Below are positions 3,083 to 38,449 of a stretch of DNA of 64,000 nucleotides, one piece after another. The position numbers and the translations under genes were made by a program. The notes beneath the pieces were generated by a model. That model saw nothing but the letters and a program-made list of their open reading frames with translations, searched no databases and was not told the DNA's origin. The stretch covers positions 62,001 to 126,000 of the forward strand of contig JAENYK010000006.1 in the NCBI GenBank assembly GCA_016841825.1. Reading direction: 5' to 3'. Origin of the DNA: Halothermothrix sp. (lineage in GTDB: Bacteria; Bacillota; Halanaerobiia; DY22613). The stretch's first letter is position 1, and each line of letters starts with the position of its first letter.

Positions 3083-4582
3083 ATGATAGTTGAAAGAACA
3101 AGCCTAACTGATGAGAGTTATCGTCTGCCCAGAGATTATGTACAGAAACATCGGGTAATTCCACTGGGGATTGATGAAGGTCGATTGGCGATTGCAATTC
3201 CTGATGGATTATCGTTAGAGATTAGAAGAGATCTGGAGATTTTTTTTAATCAACCACTAACCTTTAGGATTCATCAGGTTTCGGAATTGGATAATTTGAT
3301 TCAGGAGTATCTGGAATCTGGTGGCGAAACAATTGAGGGAATGTTAAAGAATATTGATTCAGATGAGTATTCCACGGGTGATATTTATTTTAGCCAGAGT
3401 GTCGAAAATTTGGAAGATATGGCTTTGGAAGCTCCGATAATTAGATTAGTTAATCTGGTGATCAGTGAGGCATTAAAACAAAGAGCCAGTGATATTCATC
3501 TTGAACCTTTTGAAGATCAGGTTAAGTTACGTTATCGGGTTGACGGTATCCTTTATGAACAGACCCCACCTTCAAAAACCCTCTTCCCTGCTATTATTAC
3601 GAGAATCAAAATTATGGCGAATCTCAATATTGCCGAAAGACGTTTACCCCAGGATGGAAGAATCAGAATAAAGATTGCTAATCGGGAAGTAGATATTCGT
3701 GTTTCTACAATCCCGACGATTTACGGGGAGAGTTTGGTAATGCGTCTTTTAGATCAAAGTTCATCTTTATTAGATTTTGGGGAACTGGGATTTGAACCTG
3801 ATACTTTAGAACTTTTTCGGAAGAATTTACAGTTTATCAATGGAATTATTTTAGTTACCGGACCTACCGGAAGTGGTAAGAGTACAACTCTGTATTCCAG
3901 TTTAAACTTAATGAATGGACCAGATAAAAAGATTCTTACCGTAGAAGATCCTGTTGAATATCACATAACAGGGATCAATCAGATGCAGGTTAATGACAAA
4001 ATAGGGTTTACTTTTGCAACAGGATTAAGATCTATCTTGCGTCAGGACCCTGATATTATTATGGTTGGTGAGATGCGTGATCTGGAGACTGCTCAGATGG
4101 GCATTCAGGCTGCATTGACAGGTCATTTAGTATTTTCTACATTACATACAAACGATTCGGCCAGTACTATTGCCCGCCTACTGGATATGGGTGTTGATGA
4201 CTATCTGGTAGCATCAACGGTCAGATGTATTTTGGCACAGCGATTAGTTAGAAGAATCTGTCCGAACTGCAAAGAAGAGTATCATCCGGGTCCCAGTGAA
4301 CTAAATGCCCTGGATTTGCCGATTGATAGTCAGGTTTCTTTTTATCATGGTAGAGGTTGTGAGGAATGCAATTATAGTGGTTATCGGGGGCGAATCGGAA
4401 TATTTGAATTGATGAATATTACACCAGAAATCGAAGAGATGATTACCAGTCGGCGAAATTCTAGTGAGATCAAAAAATTAGCCTGCACTCATGGGATGGT
4501 GACTTTACGGGAGTATGGATTTAAGAAAGTACTTAATGGAGTTACTACGCTGGATGAAGTTATCAGGGTCACACAAGTATAG
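3083..4582 (+). CDS. gspE: Type II secretion system ATPase GspE
   Basis: A 499-residue hexameric secretion ATPase that powers pseudopilus assembly from the cytoplasmic face. An N-terminal GspE/PilB N-domain is followed by the ATPase core: Walker A GPTGSGKST at residues 260-268, Asp/Walker B region DPDIIMVGEMRD, and the His box STLHTNDSA. A C-terminal tetracysteine zinc motif (CPNC ... CEEC) is typical of GspE and PilB. ATG at 3083 is chosen because AGGTGG at 3069-3074 is correctly spaced; an in-frame TTG at 3062 is possible. It is the first gene of an operon with the pseudopilins and secretin, which favours GspE over a pilus PilB. Confidence 0.93.
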   Translation: MIVERTSLTDESYRLPRDYVQKHRVIPLGIDEGRLAIAIPDGLSLEIRRDLEIFFNQPLTFRIHQVSELDNLIQEYLESGGETIEGMLKNIDSDEYSTGDIYFSQSVENLEDMALEAPIIRLVNLVISEALKQRASDIHLEPFEDQVKLRYRVDGILYEQTPPSKTLFPAIITRIKIMANLNIAERRLPQDGRIRIKIANREVDIRVSTIPTIYGESLVMRLLDQSSSLLDFGELGFEPDTLELFRKNLQFINGIILVTGPTGSGKSTTLYSSLNLMNGPDKKILTVEDPVEYHITGINQMQVNDKIGFTFATGLRSILRQDPDIIMVGEMRDLETAQMGIQAALTGHLVFSTLHTNDSASTIARLLDMGVDDYLVASTVRCILAQRLVRRICPNCKEEYHPGPSELNALDLPIDSQVSFYHGRGCEECNYSGYRGRIGIFELMNITPEIEEMITSRRNSSEIKKLACTHGMVTLREYGFKKVLNGVTTLDEVIRVTQV

Positions 4583-4593
4583 GGGTGAAATTG

Positions 4594-5799
4594 ATGGTGG
4601 AATTTAGATATCAAGCTGTTGATCGTTCGGGGAAGATACTCAATGGGAGAATTCTGGCAGAGTCCAGAGAGCAAGCTATCTCAAAAATAAAATCAGAACT
4701 AGGTTTGATTCCGACAGAAGTTAAAGAAGAAGTCGGTCGCGTAAGAGGTGGTAATCGTTTAGGGGGATCAAAGCAGAATTTTGTCCTCAACTTTTCTCAA
4801 CAGATGGCCAACCTTTTAAATTCGGGAATTCAAATAGATGATGCTTTGACTGTTTTGATTCAACTGACAGGAGATTCTGCCCAGCGGGAGTTGATTAGAG
4901 AGATTCAAGAAGATATTCAGGGTGGTTCAGATCTCTCACAGGCTTTAGCCAAACATCCAGCTTATTTTAATGAATCTTACATTAATATGATTAAAGCCGG
5001 AGAAAGTGGGGGAGTATTAGGCCTTTGTATCCAGAGATTGACAGATTATCTTGAGCAGGACAGACAGTTTAAAGGTTCAATTAAATCTGCTCTGTTATAT
5101 CCTATGATAGTGCTGCTTATGGGTATCGGGGCAGTAATTATTCTCTTTATTGTGGTTATTCCGCGTTTCGTGGGGATTTTCGATTCTCTTGGACAGGAGT
5201 TACCATTACCTACCCGAATTCTTCTGGGGATAAGTAGTAGTATTAATCTTTACTGGCCGTATATGCTTGTTGGTCTGGCTGTAGTCATCGGGGGAATTTT
5301 TGCTTATGTGACTACATCGGAAGGTCGCTACCAGCTGGATAAATTTCTTAATGGACTACCTTTTCTCGGTCAGGTGAGAATTAAGCTAACAGTCTCAAGG
5401 TTTACCAGAATTCTTGGAACGATGTTAGATAGTGGGGTACCTTTACTTAAAGGGTTGGAGATTGCTAAAAATACTTTGAACAACAAAATTTATATTAAAA
5501 TAATCGGAAATTTGTATGAACATGTTCGCAAAGGTGGTACATTGATCGGATTTTTGCAGACTGAGCCAGCATTTCCAGATCTAGCAGTTTTTCTAATCGG
5601 TGTTGGAGAGCGAACAGGTAATTTAGAGAACATGTTAAATAAGGTTGCAGATACCTTGGCGTTTGAGGTACAAAAGACTCTGAAAAATTTCTTAACTATT
5701 CTGGAACCAATAATTATTCTTTTTTTGGGATTGTTTGTCGTATTTGTTGTTCTATCAATATTATTACCGATTTTTTCACTTAATGAATTACCATTTTAA
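4594..5799 (+). CDS. gspF: Type II secretion inner-membrane platform protein GspF
   Basis: A 401-residue polytopic membrane protein with the duplicated T2SSF domain. The first copy carries NFSQQMANLLNSGIQIDDAL and the second FTRILGTMLDSGVPLLKGLEIA. There are hydrophobic segments after each copy (LYPMIVLLMGIGAVIILFIV and LEPIIILFLGLFVVFVVLSI). The family length is about 400. It is the membrane platform that couples GspE to pseudopilin assembly. ATG at 4594 has AGGGGTGA at 4581-4588 just upstream; a GTG at 4585 is inside that site. It follows gspE after 11 nt. Confidence 0.93.
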   Translation: MVEFRYQAVDRSGKILNGRILAESREQAISKIKSELGLIPTEVKEEVGRVRGGNRLGGSKQNFVLNFSQQMANLLNSGIQIDDALTVLIQLTGDSAQRELIREIQEDIQGGSDLSQALAKHPAYFNESYINMIKAGESGGVLGLCIQRLTDYLEQDRQFKGSIKSALLYPMIVLLMGIGAVIILFIVVIPRFVGIFDSLGQELPLPTRILLGISSSINLYWPYMLVGLAVVIGGIFAYVTTSEGRYQLDKFLNGLPFLGQVRIKLTVSRFTRILGTMLDSGVPLLKGLEIAKNTLNNKIYIKIIGNLYEHVRKGGTLIGFLQTEPAFPDLAVFLIGVGERTGNLENMLNKVADTLAFEVQKTLKNFLTILEPIIILFLGLFVVFVVLSILLPIFSLNELPF

Positions 5800-28130: not shown

Positions 28131-28323
28131 TATCTCAAAGATGTGTTTGCAATTTTTACAATTTAGTTCCACTTCGACTAACTCCAAATCTGTCAAATTA
28201 AACAGTTATCGTTCTGGACAATACTGCATATACATTAAATAAATATTAGCAGCCATTTGCCGAAAATTCAGGTTTTATATAAAAGCCAATCTTGTATTTA
28301 GGATTGTTAATATATATCCTGCC

Positions 28324-31670: not shown

Positions 31671-33824
31671 TTGAGAGACAGGGTTGAATTAATTTGGAAT
31701 GAGGTAAAGTTGTTATTCAAATTAAAAATGGTAATAGTTCTTATCCTATTAACGATTATTTTCATGATTATAGGTTTGGGAGCAGTAAATTCTTCTGATA
31801 ACTATGCTTTACACAATATGCGGCAGACTTCCAGAATTATCGCTCTGGGTTCTGCCAGGTATGGTGCACTATTTGGGTCAGTTCTATTTGGAATGATGAC
31901 AATTATTCTATTGAATAGAGATCAACGAAAAGGCAGTAAAGATTTGATAGAAGCAAATCTGGAGTATTATCAGTTAATTATTGTCAGGATTATTTCCCTT
32001 ATTTTACTGGTAATTGGGACAATTTTACTGGGAATGCTAGTGGTTTTTATAGTGCAAACCTGGATATATCAGACAGTTTTTGAACTGAGAATATACCTCT
32101 TTTCCTATGGTGTGGTTTTCTTTCCGGCTATACTTTTTGCAATTTTGCTAACAAGTGGAGTGTATTTGATCACTGATAATAGTGATATGAGTTTATTATC
32201 ATTGGCGGGGTTGTATTTTTTGAGTTTAACTTCAAATAATTATTTACTAAACTGGGTTCAGACCCATGCATTGCTGTATTCCGATTTTGCTTCAATCAGA
32301 CCCGTGACCTCATTTATCCTATATAATCGGCTATTCTGGGTAAGTATTTCATTGGGAGTTTTGGCTCTGGGTCTTTTGTTTAAGCGGCGGTATCAACGAG
32401 GAATTTACGAATCTATGCTAATTAATGGGCAAAAGTTATTTATACCACTGGCTGTAGTTGGTTTGCTCTGTTTAGCTCTGCTGATCTATTCTCATGAGCC
32501 ATTGATTAACTCTGCAGACAGTGCACTGAATATAGAGGAACCAGTAATAAATGAACGGGTTATCCTCACCAAAATATTACCAGATATAACTTTTTATCCA
32601 GATAAAGGTGAGATGAAAGCAGTGGTAAATTATATTTTTTGCAAAGAGTTAGCTGAAGAAAGGATTGAATTGATTACTAATACAGGTTTACAGATAACTT
32701 CTGTTAAAGTTAATGGTCTTCCTACGGGTTTTGAATATCTGAAGGGAACAGATAGAATACAAGTAGATTTGGCAGATGGGGAACAGGTGGAGTTGGAAGT
32801 GACTTATGAAGGTAGGATCAAATATCCCCATGTCAGCACCGTTGCAGGATATATCTCTGAAAACAGTATTTATCTCCTGGAACAGTCTCATTGGATTTTT
32901 GAGCCATTGACAGCTCGGGATGAACAGGTGGAGATAATCGGAGCCGTTACTCTACCGGCAGAATTGACGGCTGTCCCTGTCGGTGAAATAACAGCCATCA
33001 AAGAGGAAGCTGGACAGAAAACCTGGGAGTATATGCTAAAAACGAGAAGTCTGGAATTGGGTTTTTTTGCTGCAGAATACACCCAAAAAATATTCAATGT
33101 CGCCGGGATTGAAGTTCAATTATTCACTTCACCCAGGCATGAGGCATATTTGTTTCAGAAGGATTTAGAGCACTACATTACTGGAATTGTGGAATATTAT
33201 ACTCAGGTAATAGGTGAATATGCCTTTCTAGATCAACCCTTGAAGATTGTCGAGAGTTCTCTGTACAAAACAGGAGGTCATTCTACAGCGAATGTGATCA
33301 CTATTGCTGAATATGTGTTTAATCGAGAATTTACTAATTCTACATCAATGGAAGAATGGCGTTTCTATCAGGACATCGAGCTGCTGGCCCACGAAATAGC
33401 GCATCAATGGTGGGGTTCAGGAGTAGAAGTTACTGTTAATACACCCTGGTCATCAGAAGGTTTAGCCTGCTATATGTCCAACAAATATATGGAAGCTGAA
33501 TTTGGAGAGGAAGTTAGCTTTATGCTGTCCAGTTATTGGGAATCATCTGTCCGGTTAATGCAAGGGAAGTATTATTATCAACATCCCAATCAGGTGGGAT
33601 TGTTGAAAAAGGATATGCAGACCCAGATCGCTACAGAGAAACTGAAGACCGAACTTTATTCAATCATGCCTTTGCAATTGCTGAAAGCTGAAAAAATTCT
33701 GGGAAAAGAGCAGTTTTTGCAAAGTTTAGCCAGGCTATATAAGCAAAATCTTTTCCAGAGTGTTAGTTATCAGGAATTTTTTGCTGAAACTAATCTGACG
33801 AAGGAGGCGATCACTCTTGACTAA
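31671..33824 (+). CDS. ABC permease fused to an M1-family aminopeptidase domain
   Basis: A 717-residue two-part protein. The first half (to about residue 280) has about six hydrophobic helices of an ABC-2 permease (for example MVIVLILLTIIFMIIGLGAV). The second half is an M1-type zinc peptidase: the catalytic motif HEIAHQWWG gives His574, Glu575 and His578, and the third ligand Glu596 lies in SSEGLACY, the standard 18-residue spacing. Orientation suggests that the peptidase domain lies outside the cytoplasmic membrane. TTG at 31671 follows GGGAGGG. Fusions like this are known but poorly characterised; the substrate is unknown. Confidence 0.85.
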   Translation: MRDRVELIWNEVKLLFKLKMVIVLILLTIIFMIIGLGAVNSSDNYALHNMRQTSRIIALGSARYGALFGSVLFGMMTIILLNRDQRKGSKDLIEANLEYYQLIIVRIISLILLVIGTILLGMLVVFIVQTWIYQTVFELRIYLFSYGVVFFPAILFAILLTSGVYLITDNSDMSLLSLAGLYFLSLTSNNYLLNWVQTHALLYSDFASIRPVTSFILYNRLFWVSISLGVLALGLLFKRRYQRGIYESMLINGQKLFIPLAVVGLLCLALLIYSHEPLINSADSALNIEEPVINERVILTKILPDITFYPDKGEMKAVVNYIFCKELAEERIELITNTGLQITSVKVNGLPTGFEYLKGTDRIQVDLADGEQVELEVTYEGRIKYPHVSTVAGYISENSIYLLEQSHWIFEPLTARDEQVEIIGAVTLPAELTAVPVGEITAIKEEAGQKTWEYMLKTRSLELGFFAAEYTQKIFNVAGIEVQLFTSPRHEAYLFQKDLEHYITGIVEYYTQVIGEYAFLDQPLKIVESSLYKTGGHSTANVITIAEYVFNREFTNSTSMEEWRFYQDIELLAHEIAHQWWGSGVEVTVNTPWSSEGLACYMSNKYMEAEFGEEVSFMLSSYWESSVRLMQGKYYYQHPNQVGLLKKDMQTQIATEKLKTELYSIMPLQLLKAEKILGKEQFLQSLARLYKQNLFQSVSYQEFFAETNLTKEAITLD

Positions 33825-35573: not shown

Positions 35574-35676
35574 ATGACCCCACTTCTATAAGTGGAAGCT
35601 GCGTTGTTCTACTTCGGGTGGGATAGAATTTCCATCTGAAGTAGAACAACGCAGCTTTAGCTGAACGAGTTCACTG
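35574..35676 (+). repeat. Dispersed repeat family B, copy 3 (longest)
   Basis: Contains CCACTTCTATAAGTGG, then a perfect 19-bp hairpin (35597-35615 with 35638-35656) enclosing CGGGTGG-like sequence, then TTTAGCTGAACGAGTTCACTG. It ends 1 nt before the stop codon of the minus-strand radical SAM gene, and so sits exactly between two convergent genes. Confidence 0.78.
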
Positions 35677-35677
35677 A

Positions 35678-36733
35678 TTATGTTAATGATTCTGGACTTA
35701 TTCCCATCTCAACTTCATATTTTCGTAAACACATCGGGTTCTCCAGGAAAGTATTGGTTAGTGAATAGGCGAGAGATGAGCACCCTGCTAAACAGATATG
35801 GGCAAACTCGCACTCTTTACAAAAACCAGTTAACTTGTCAGGAGTACGTTCTCTGAAAATCTTAAAGGTTTCTGAATCCTCCCAGATCTCTTTTAAGGAC
35901 CGTTGTCTGATGTCACCTACAACATTCTCATCATTGCGAATGGACAGACAGCCCCTGATTTTACCATCGGCTTCGATGCCGATATTCCATTTTCCGGCCG
36001 GGCATCCCCGAAAGGGATGGGTTCTGACATAGGGTTCGAGAGATGTAAAGTGTCCGATATTATCTGCAATATCGATCTTCATCTTCTGATCCTGTTGGAA
36101 TTTGAGAACAGATTTATACATAGTATATAGTTTGTCGGCAGTTATCTGTAATTCCGGATTCTGATTGGCTCGACCAAAGTCTTCAACACATTGAATCTGC
36201 CAACTTTTGATCCCCAGATTGCAGAACAATGAATAAAGCTCGGGAATCTGATCAATATTGATTCCAGAGACCGCAGTATTTATACCAATTCCTATGCCAT
36301 TGTTCTGGGCCAGTCTGATATTAGCGAGAACTTTCTCGAAAAGACCAGGAACTCCTCGCAGATAATCATGGGTCCCATCGATTCCATCGATGCTGACCGC
36401 GATAAATTTTATTCCAATATCGTTTAAGATGTGAATATTCTTTTCTGTGAGGAGGATTCCATTGGTCAAAAGAGCCACCTGAATCTCCAGGCCTTTGAGT
36501 TTAAGACAAACATCTTGCCAGTAGGGACTAAGGAAAAATTCACCACCAATTATTCCTACCACCTTACAGCCCAATTCCTTTAACTCCTCACATAAATGTA
36601 GAGCTTCCTCTCTGGATAGTTCATTGATCCGACTTTTACCAGATGATGAACCACAGTGCAGACAATTTGCATTACATCGGTTGGTCAATTCCCAGACAGC
36701 AAAATGGGGGTAATACTTTCTTTTCTCAGACAA
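35678..36733 (-). CDS. Radical SAM / SPASM domain enzyme, RiPP-maturase-like
   Basis: A 351-residue radical SAM enzyme. The cluster motif CNANCLHC gives Cys20, Cys24 and Cys27 near the N-terminus, and IIGGEFF is the SAM-binding motif. The C-terminal third has SPASM cysteines: GCPAGKWNIGIEADG, GCLSIRNDENVVGD, FCKECEFAHICLAGC, MCLRKYE. SPASM enzymes bind two extra 4Fe-4S clusters and often modify peptides (for example AlbA, PqqE, anSME). No PqqD-like recognition domain is seen. TTG at 36733 lies 9 nt after GGAGG and overlaps the preceding gene by 8 nt. It is the last gene of the peptide operon. Confidence 0.85.
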   Translation of the reverse strand: MSEKRKYYPHFAVWELTNRCNANCLHCGSSSGKSRINELSREEALHLCEELKELGCKVVGIIGGEFFLSPYWQDVCLKLKGLEIQVALLTNGILLTEKNIHILNDIGIKFIAVSIDGIDGTHDYLRGVPGLFEKVLANIRLAQNNGIGIGINTAVSGINIDQIPELYSLFCNLGIKSWQIQCVEDFGRANQNPELQITADKLYTMYKSVLKFQQDQKMKIDIADNIGHFTSLEPYVRTHPFRGCPAGKWNIGIEADGKIRGCLSIRNDENVVGDIRQRSLKEIWEDSETFKIFRERTPDKLTGFCKECEFAHICLAGCSSLAYSLTNTFLENPMCLRKYEVEMGISPESLT

Positions 36734-38192
36734 ATTTGGTCACCTCCAGCTTTAAATTAAGTAATTCTTGTGTCCGATCTTTCAGGAGCTGAGGGGATGG
36801 TTCTTTGATATAAGTCAAGATAGTTTCAATGAAAAGAGTGCAGATCTCACCATTCAAAGCGGCCATCTTTTTTGATCGATCGGGATCAGACCGTTCACGA
36901 AAGCGGACACCTAGTCTTTCAATATCAGGTAACACTTTCAAATAAAAGGTAATGATGTAATCATAGAGTTGTAAGACATCTTGATTTGAAAAAGAATAGG
37001 TATAACCATGCCATGGCCCGGTTAATTTAGCATCTTTTTTTAGTTTAGTAGCTATTGGGGTGTTGGGAAATACCTGTAACATATTCTTCAGACTATATAA
37101 CAGGTTTCTCTGGTCAGTTTTAAATAAAAAGTTAATATTCGCCTCAACCTCTGCAAGAGTTGTATAAGGATGAAACATTATAAAGCCAACAGTGTAGTTA
37201 ATCCCTAAATTTTGTAAAATTTGAATAGCCTGTTCATTATCTTTGACAGTTAGATCTTTTTGAAAGAGGTTAAGAGTAGGCTGGTATCCAGATTCTACAC
37301 CCAAAAAGACAGAACGGAGTCCAGCCTGTTTAAGAAGTTTCATCAGATCAACCTTTACTTCATTAGAGCGACACTCAACAGTAAACTGTAGATCGAGTTT
37401 GCGGTTGATTAATTCCCGGGCAAATTCTTCAATTCTAAGTGAATCTTGATGACTGCCGCCGACAAAAGTGTCATCGACAATTTGAATATGCTTAACCTGA
37501 TAATCATAGTGGAGTCGTTCCATCTCATCGAGGACAGAGTTAATATTACGACACCGTCGATTTCGGGTATTGGTGGTTATCGAGCAATAGCTACACCGGC
37601 CATAACATCCTCTGCTAGACAAGATTAATGGACTCATCCCCTGTTGAAGTACAGCCGGTAATGTATCTCTGGCTGGCTCAATCAGGGAATCCAGACTTTC
37701 TTCATATTTAGGATATTTTTGCTCCCAGAGTGGATCATTAGCAAAGGTAATATGGGGATGTTTAGTCCAATCCTGAGCTGAGAAGATCGACTCAGCCAGT
37801 TCGACAAATGTATTCTCACCTTCTCCCAGGACCAGGGAATCCAGTTCTCTTAGTTCACTGAGGATATAGGTATACGTATTGGTTGCAAAAACCCCTCCTA
37901 ACGAGATATGGGTAGTTGGAAGTTGTTCTTTCACAGTTTTCACAAAATCAGTTAAAGCAGAATAGGAGTCCTGATAACAGGAGAGGCCAATTAATGTTGG
38001 TTTAAGTTCCAGAGTTTTGGAGATAATCTGCTGTAGGGGAATTTTGGTAATATTTTGGTCAATGATTTTCACTGTATATCCAGCTTGTCGGAGAGCTGAG
38101 GTTAGATAACCAATTCCCAAATGTTCAAAGATTCGATCTGTTACATATTCTTTTGTCGATTGTAAGACAATCAAAAGGACCTGGATATTCAT
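36726..38192 (-). CDS. B12-binding-type radical SAM enzyme, RiPP-maturase-like
   Basis: A 488-residue radical SAM enzyme with an N-terminal Rossmann-like region of about 140 residues (IGYLTSALRQAGYTVKIIDQ, IGLSCYQDSY, ISLGGVFAT) of the cobalamin-binding type. The central motif CYGRCSYC gives Cys196, Cys200 and Cys203. The DxHxxG cobalamin-ligand motif is not visible, so cobalamin binding may be base-off or lost. Family members perform methylation or ring-forming chemistry. ATG at 38192 follows GGAGG by 8 nt; TTG at 38207 is less likely. It follows a 33-residue peptide gene. Confidence 0.83.
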   Translation of the reverse strand: MNIQVLLIVLQSTKEYVTDRIFEHLGIGYLTSALRQAGYTVKIIDQNITKIPLQQIISKTLELKPTLIGLSCYQDSYSALTDFVKTVKEQLPTTHISLGGVFATNTYTYILSELRELDSLVLGEGENTFVELAESIFSAQDWTKHPHITFANDPLWEQKYPKYEESLDSLIEPARDTLPAVLQQGMSPLILSSRGCYGRCSYCSITTNTRNRRCRNINSVLDEMERLHYDYQVKHIQIVDDTFVGGSHQDSLRIEEFARELINRKLDLQFTVECRSNEVKVDLMKLLKQAGLRSVFLGVESGYQPTLNLFQKDLTVKDNEQAIQILQNLGINYTVGFIMFHPYTTLAEVEANINFLFKTDQRNLLYSLKNMLQVFPNTPIATKLKKDAKLTGPWHGYTYSFSNQDVLQLYDYIITFYLKVLPDIERLGVRFRERSDPDRSKKMAALNGEICTLFIETILTYIKEPSPQLLKDRTQELLNLKLEVTKFV

Positions 38193-38234
38193 CTTCCATA
38201 CCTCCAATTCATCAAGGAAATAGAGAGAAGAGAG

Positions 38235-38257
38235 AAAAAATGTATGTATCTTACATA
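38235..38257 (-). terminator. Weak attenuator-like hairpin between the peptide gene and the radical SAM genes
   Basis: On the minus strand TATGTA-AGA-TACATA is followed by C and ATTTTTT. Stem is only 6 bp. Partial terminators after precursor genes are common in RiPP operons, giving more peptide than enzyme transcript. Confidence 0.4.
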
Positions 38258-38290
38258 TACTTTTGTAATTACAAAGGTATTCTCAAAAAA

Positions 38291-38392
38291 TTAAGCTAAA
38301 TCACCAGGAAGAGATGGCATGTAGCAAATTAAATCAGATGGCTGATCTTCAATAACTTCCATTTGATCTAAATTCCAGAATTTGTTTACCAT
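38291..38392 (-). CDS. Candidate RiPP precursor peptide (33 aa)
   Basis: A 33-codon gene with an excellent ribosome binding site (AAGGAGGTGAT, 8 nt before ATG). The N-terminal part looks like a leader: MVNKFWNLDQMEVIEDQPSD, hydrophobic then acidic. The C-terminal part ICYMPSLPGDLA carries one Cys, one Tyr, two Pro and one Gly-Asp, a plausible core. It stands 98 nt upstream of two radical SAM genes of the kinds that modify peptides. I do not recognise the peptide family. Without the neighbours it would be dismissed as too short; the ribosome site and placement are the evidence. Confidence 0.6.
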   Translation of the reverse strand: MVNKFWNLDQMEVIEDQPSDLICYMPSLPGDLA

Positions 38393-38449
38393 TAGTATCA
38401 CCTCCTTAAAATAAATAGTAATAATCCTCTCTATTTCCTTATTAGAAAA

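Follow-up and report, generated by a model that had tools for sequence, protein, structure and literature searches.

A 33-residue peptide beside a splicease-like radical SAM enzyme in Halothermothrix suggests a spliceotide-type locus with a minimal leader

Spliceases are radical enzymes that remove part of a tyrosine from the backbone of a peptide, with loss of a tyramine equivalent (C8H9NO), and so create beta-amino acids. PlpX, the enzyme of the PlpXY system of Pleurocapsa, is presumably a member of the family TIGR04103 (nif11-class maturase 3). This assignment agrees with the cyanobacterial loci of that family: TIGR04103 was found above its cut-off in 20 genomes of the cyanobacterial phylum, and most of these loci have adjoining Nif11 peptides with LYGV-type sites, including repeated PLYGV. 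A small PlpY-like ORF (LLPRSAW...AYLR...AKKALDRIE) followed the enzyme in seven of the eight loci checked by eye. The published spliceotide layout of Nif11 peptides, Xaa-Tyr-Gly (XYG) sites and PlpY matches this arrangement (PMC10533398, PMC11002830). The motif defined for PlpX includes the glycine (PMC10373908).

We compared these systems with an operon on the minus strand of a 64,000-nucleotide stretch of Halothermothrix DNA (the window). The precursor gene (38291..38392), an ATG frame behind the ribosome-binding site AAGGAGGTGAT (38397..38407), encodes the 33-residue peptide MVNKFWNLDQMEVIEDQPSDLICYMPSLPGDLA. Its stop codon lies 98 nt before the ATG (38192) of a gene for a 488-residue enzyme with B12-binding and Radical_SAM domains (36726..38192; PF02310 and PF04055), which overlaps by 8 nt a gene for a 351-residue enzyme with Radical_SAM and SPASM domains and a TTG start at 36733 (35678..36733). 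An earlier sequence-only reading had given these coordinates, the gap, the overlap, the ribosome-binding site and the B12-type and SPASM identities, all of which were confirmed by the sequence and by Pfam. Downstream of the SPASM gene, a hairpin with a perfect 20-bp stem (35595..35657, minus strand; fold −37 kcal/mol, z = −10.7) may mark the 3′ end of the operon; one copy of its arm, with two mismatches, occurs at 28318, and the arm was absent from all paralogue loci examined. No attenuator was supported between the precursor and the B12-type gene (z −1.2), and a promoter scan gave scores no better than those of shuffled sequences. The opposite strand carries ABC/M1-peptidase genes at 30.8–35.5 kb, for which an unsystematic look gave no support for a link to the operon. 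One of them (31671–33824) follows an ABC ATPase gene and codes for a fusion of a membrane protein with an M1 aminopeptidase-like domain.

The window's own genome (G000; 5.08 Mb, 43 contigs) contains a second peptide with 54% identity to the window precursor and seven SPASM genes of one family, the other six being 51–59% identical to the window's. When the sequence around each was read, every one of the seven loci had one to four tiny ORFs of a common design: an M[VIL][ND]..W[NDE]L box (the WNL box), a partly acidic stretch, Xaa-Tyr-Xaa and a short tail that is often rich in proline or acidic residues. Used as a regular expression, the motif matched 16 of the 1133 ORFs of 24–60 residues at the seven loci, against 0.19 expected in shuffled ORFs, and all 16 adjoin a SPASM gene. 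A profile of these 16 precursors recovered all of them together with a held-out 17th, MINKWNLENLSYESATEPPYMDYMPSEPPYDEHFNIA, on contig C2 (E = 2e-8), which brings the genome to at least 17. AGGAGG-like ribosome-binding sites, with small variations, belong to the 16 other precursors too. Tandem precursor copies have many synonymous differences and are under purifying selection, with dN/dS well below 1 and mostly <0.25: the values were about 0.08, 0.07, 0.10, 0.21 and 0.22 at locus L028 and 0.07 at L031, and dS was saturated in one further pair.

The 17 precursors have the make-up of a RiPP locus, namely a short precursor, a conserved leader, a variable core and adjoining modifying enzymes, and on this sequence evidence the small frame does encode a RiPP precursor of 33 residues; a spurious ORF was rejected on the motif enrichment, the dN/dS values and the held-out match. 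That the locus makes a modified peptide, as the sequence-only reading had proposed, is strongly supported by the precursors beside every paralogue, by purifying selection and by an independent homologue in a SAR324 genome (see below). The outcome which that reading had named as its refutation, a small frame that is not conserved or is conserved only at the DNA level, clearly did not occur. Its division of the peptide into an acidic leader and a C-terminal core was supported as well, except that conservation is not confined to the C-terminal end: in the alignment of the 17, the most conserved parts are the WNL box at the N-terminal end and the spacing from Trp to Tyr. It had recognised a RiPP and overlooked both the splicease superclade and the key core tyrosine.

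The 17th precursor (L183, 9808–9972; G000 contig C2:115831–115920) lies directly downstream of two NRPS genes and adjoins no SPASM gene. It may be modified in trans, as its YMPSEPP core is identical to that of peptide 1 at locus L027.

The best NCBIfam match of the window's SPASM enzyme was TIGR04103 (2.7e-67; 227 bits, cut-off 725), followed by TIGR03913 (GDL-peptide maturase; 1.4e-65; 221 bits against a cut-off of 592). AhbD and NirJ were secondary matches, and sactipeptide families matched far more weakly than TIGR04103. The enzyme has the cluster motif CNANCLHC and seven SPASM cysteines, which are invariant, and its AlphaFold model (pLDDT 94) shows a SPASM fold whose nearest solved structures are SkfB, PqqE and SuiB, and also EpeE. 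In a phylogenetic tree, all seven G000 enzymes grouped with one from SAR324 in a single clade (100/100). This WNL clade falls within a superclade to which TIGR04103 also belongs and from which the AhbD-type haem enzymes are cleanly set apart (100/100); branch order inside the superclade is weakly resolved, and the position of the WNL clade in it is not resolved.

W[NDE]L is present in all 17 precursors of this genome and in the SAR324 precursor; in the window it forms leader residues 6–8 (38369..38377) and is the proposed enzyme-recognition element. The core tyrosine lies 17–20 residues past the box Trp in 17/17 precursors, compared with a shuffle mean of 5.5/17 in a spacing test that was chosen after the alignment had been seen. 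Tyr24 of the window peptide is 18 residues from Trp6, within Cys-Tyr-Met (residues 23–25; 38318..38326), the proposed splice or modification site. Three of the seven loci have XYG cores (CYG at L028, PYG at L029 and at L030). In the other four, Met, Cys or Ser follows the tyrosine: YMP in the window and at L027, as in the orphan precursor, YC at L031 and YS at L032. The residue after Tyr tracks the enzyme tree, YMP going with the pair L003/L004, PYG and PYS with L006, L007 and L009, YC with L008 and CYG with L005.

Like the PlpXY spliceotides, the window system has an enzyme of the same SPASM superclade and a tyrosine-centred core; XYG occurs at three sister loci and at that of SAR324. It differs in its 33-residue WNL-box precursor, where theirs has a Nif11 or nitrile-hydratase leader, in its CYM instead of XYG core and in its additional B12-type radical SAM partner. 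No PlpY-like ORF (a truncated RRE) follows any of the WNL enzymes; the window peptide matched no Nif11 or nitrile-hydratase-like leader family, and none of the WNL peptides of G000 has a Nif11 or NHLP leader. Because the window core, Cys-Tyr-Met-Pro, lacks the Xaa-Tyr-Gly site of spliceotides, PlpY and a Nif11 leader are absent and the enzyme scores below the TIGR04103 cut-off, we do not class the locus as a spliceotide.

A strict XYG-type pattern was found at 14/20 cyanobacterial loci, 8/23 other loci of the superclade and 1/23 AhbD loci. A sister locus is present in SAR324 (L184; SPASM enzyme 54% identical). Its 98-residue precursor begins with a leader of the Os1348/NHLP clan (NF038399, slightly above its cut-off), continues with FWNLDVDNIG... 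and then SAYGGCSGCGGW, and has the XYG core SAYGG, 20 residues from Trp to Tyr. The WNL box thus occurs in two settings: appended to a normal RiPP leader and, in G000, making up almost the entire leader. Other members of the superclade also lie near tyrosine-glycine sites. In genome G031 (L090, 589–3872), seven peptides with LSLEELEEITGG-type (GG) leaders surround a SPASM gene with a C-terminal extension, and several of them have Tyr-Gly sites, including repeated SRYGVM(L/M)PD; we also found TKYGVYFPDD in secreted-looking Melainabacteria proteins, PLYGISVP in Elusimicrobia and PVYGIPTP in a Muribaculaceae MAG.

DUF1843 'GDL' peptides (L186, L188, L189 and L190) lie upstream of related TIGR03913-type enzymes on Azospirillum and Aureibacter plasmids, and one column of their alignment reads Tyr-Gly, Tyr-Met or Tyr-Ala. 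These sequences suggest that GDL-motif maturases may be spliceases with DUF1843 substrates. Both this system and the window's have a short peptide just upstream of the enzyme and a tyrosine followed by Gly or Met (or, in DUF1843, Ala), whereas in DUF1843 the tyrosine is N-terminal and precedes a helical, SGDL-containing domain. The window peptide ends in PGDL, probably by coincidence: membership of the GDL/DUF1843 family on that ground was rejected, since the peptide has no DUF1843 similarity and no Pfam match, its Tyr and GDL are arranged otherwise, and its enzyme falls below the TIGR03913 cut-off. On an Agathobacter rectalis plasmid from the human gut (NZ_CP143948.1; L187, 3324–3431), a related radical SAM gene is preceded by an unannotated 35-residue ORF, MFNLEELSLEFVKISELKTSKNLFGPVMYGTGVRM, which has a ribosome-binding site. 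Like the WNL precursors it is short, with the box near the N-terminus, the tyrosine site (MYG) near the C-terminus and a related SPASM enzyme downstream; in contrast to them, its box is FNL, the box-to-Tyr distance is longer (27) and the enzyme is only 37% identical.

Among 300 genomes of the window's phylum, G000 was the sole positive, and among 59 genomes of its class three were positive, namely G000 itself and two genomes whose systems are more distant; an orthologous operon from a close relative was therefore not available for comparison. One of 52 other SAR324 genomes was positive, and viral contigs contained no relative. No description of WNL-type precursors was found in the literature searched, in which coverage of splicease surveys was incomplete, so that they may have been described before.

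The B12-type gene is present at three of the seven loci. Only two other proteins of the genome are close to its product (47–48% identity), and both are encoded in splicease-like operons (L029 and L032). Since four loci lack the gene, among them L030 with its one precursor and one enzyme, we regard the enzyme as an add-on and not as part of the core reaction. BchE was its top NCBIfam match, with no sequence family above cut-off, and its model (pLDDT 74, modest) comes closest to OxsB, TsrM and TokK. It shares the B12-binding and radical SAM architecture of the class B cobalamin radical SAM enzymes (OxsB, TsrM, TokK, CysS), these being its nearest solved folds, and differs from them in that its substrate is presumably the peptide. 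OxsB is not a methylase; by analogy with the group, the B12-type enzyme probably C-methylates the peptide core. Elsewhere in the genome, far from the peptide operons, five B12-binding radical SAM genes lie in a row (contig C22:285927–293583).

The data establish a selected precursor family with a conserved box, spacing and tyrosine, an enzyme clade that shares a superclade with XYG-associated enzymes, and a B12-type gene tied to the operons. The window system probably works like a spliceotide. We put the probability at about 0.6 that the locus is a minimal, PlpY-free splicease-type RiPP operon that excises tyramine at Tyr24. This reading draws its support from TIGR04103 as the best match, from the XYG cores in the sister loci and among the superclade neighbours and from the fixed position of the tyrosine; the main doubt is that no glycine follows the tyrosine of the window core. 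In such an operon, the WNL box of the very short acidic leader would be bound directly by the SPASM enzyme, with no need for a PlpY/RRE partner, and would place the tyrosine 17–20 residues downstream in the active site. Radical chemistry there would most likely excise tyramine and leave a ketoamide on the preceding residue. The B12-type enzyme would probably contribute an optional methylation of the core, and cleavage and export may be carried out by unlinked genes elsewhere.

The strongest competitor, which we consider unlikely though worth keeping in mind, is a diverged relative of the spliceases that acts on the same tyrosine at the YMP, YC and YS loci and yields another product (a tyrosine-centred cross-link, a thioether or a change at the alpha-carbon) without excision of tyramine. 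It would explain why the glycine that defines XYG is replaced at four of seven loci in step with the enzyme tree, and cross-linking and epimerising SPASM enzymes (SkfB, SuiB and EpeE) are among the closest solved folds. However, XYG cores are kept beside sister enzymes of this genome that are 53–56% identical, and Tyr-Met has a precedent as a site variant in the DUF1843 peptides, where it shares a column with Tyr-Gly and Tyr-Ala. Formation of cysteine thioethers by the SPASM enzyme, as in a sactipeptide or ranthipeptide, is highly improbable: a Cys adjoins the tyrosine, before or after it, in 9/17 precursors, and many SPASM enzymes make thioethers, but the other eight contain no Cys at all despite a common leader, spacing and enzyme family, and the weak sactipeptide family matches point the same way. 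That the small ORF is a regulatory leader or spurious and that a small molecule is the true product of the two enzymes, perhaps by haem-like chemistry as the AhbD/NirJ and BchE matches might hint, is scarcely credible in view of the motif enrichment, the dN/dS values, the held-out precursor, the WNL box in the SAR324 peptide and the separate clade of AhbD-type enzymes, the last of which was the ground for rejecting a haem-type enzyme.

More tentatively, the tyramine-excising reading may extend to a whole leader-minimal splicease lineage, in which the WNL box alone recruits the enzyme and distance sets the splice position, the glycine after Tyr has been relaxed to Met, Cys or Ser, and some loci pair the enzyme with a B12 methylase that would give C-methylated beta-amino-acid peptides. 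The lineage would comprise seven parallel operons and 17 precursors, one of them beside NRPS genes and without an enzyme of its own. If so, the precursors, of about 30 residues and with no separate recognition protein, would rank with the smallest splicease substrates that we know of, and the box would be a portable N-terminal tag at a fixed distance from the cut. In the PlpXY system a partner protein takes part, and of the tag sites tried in FtsZ most stayed unmodified (PMC10533398); a single-enzyme system with a short tag would therefore help to introduce ketoamides or beta-amino acids into proteins. Between them, the seven operons have Gly, Met, Cys and Ser behind the tyrosine, and would also offer a naturally occurring series for exploring the substrate scope of an unusual reaction.

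G000 encodes many radical SAM enzymes of RiPP pathways. Upstream of the splicease-like locus L032, on the other strand, lies a gene for a CcpM-like radical SAM peptide maturase (4003–5466; TIGR04068, below cut-off). Both L031 (8492–13869) and the SAR324 locus L184 (4489–8491) have HxsB-type (TIGR03978) and MoaA-like radical SAM genes near the splicease-like gene, which suggests that the two share a larger island.
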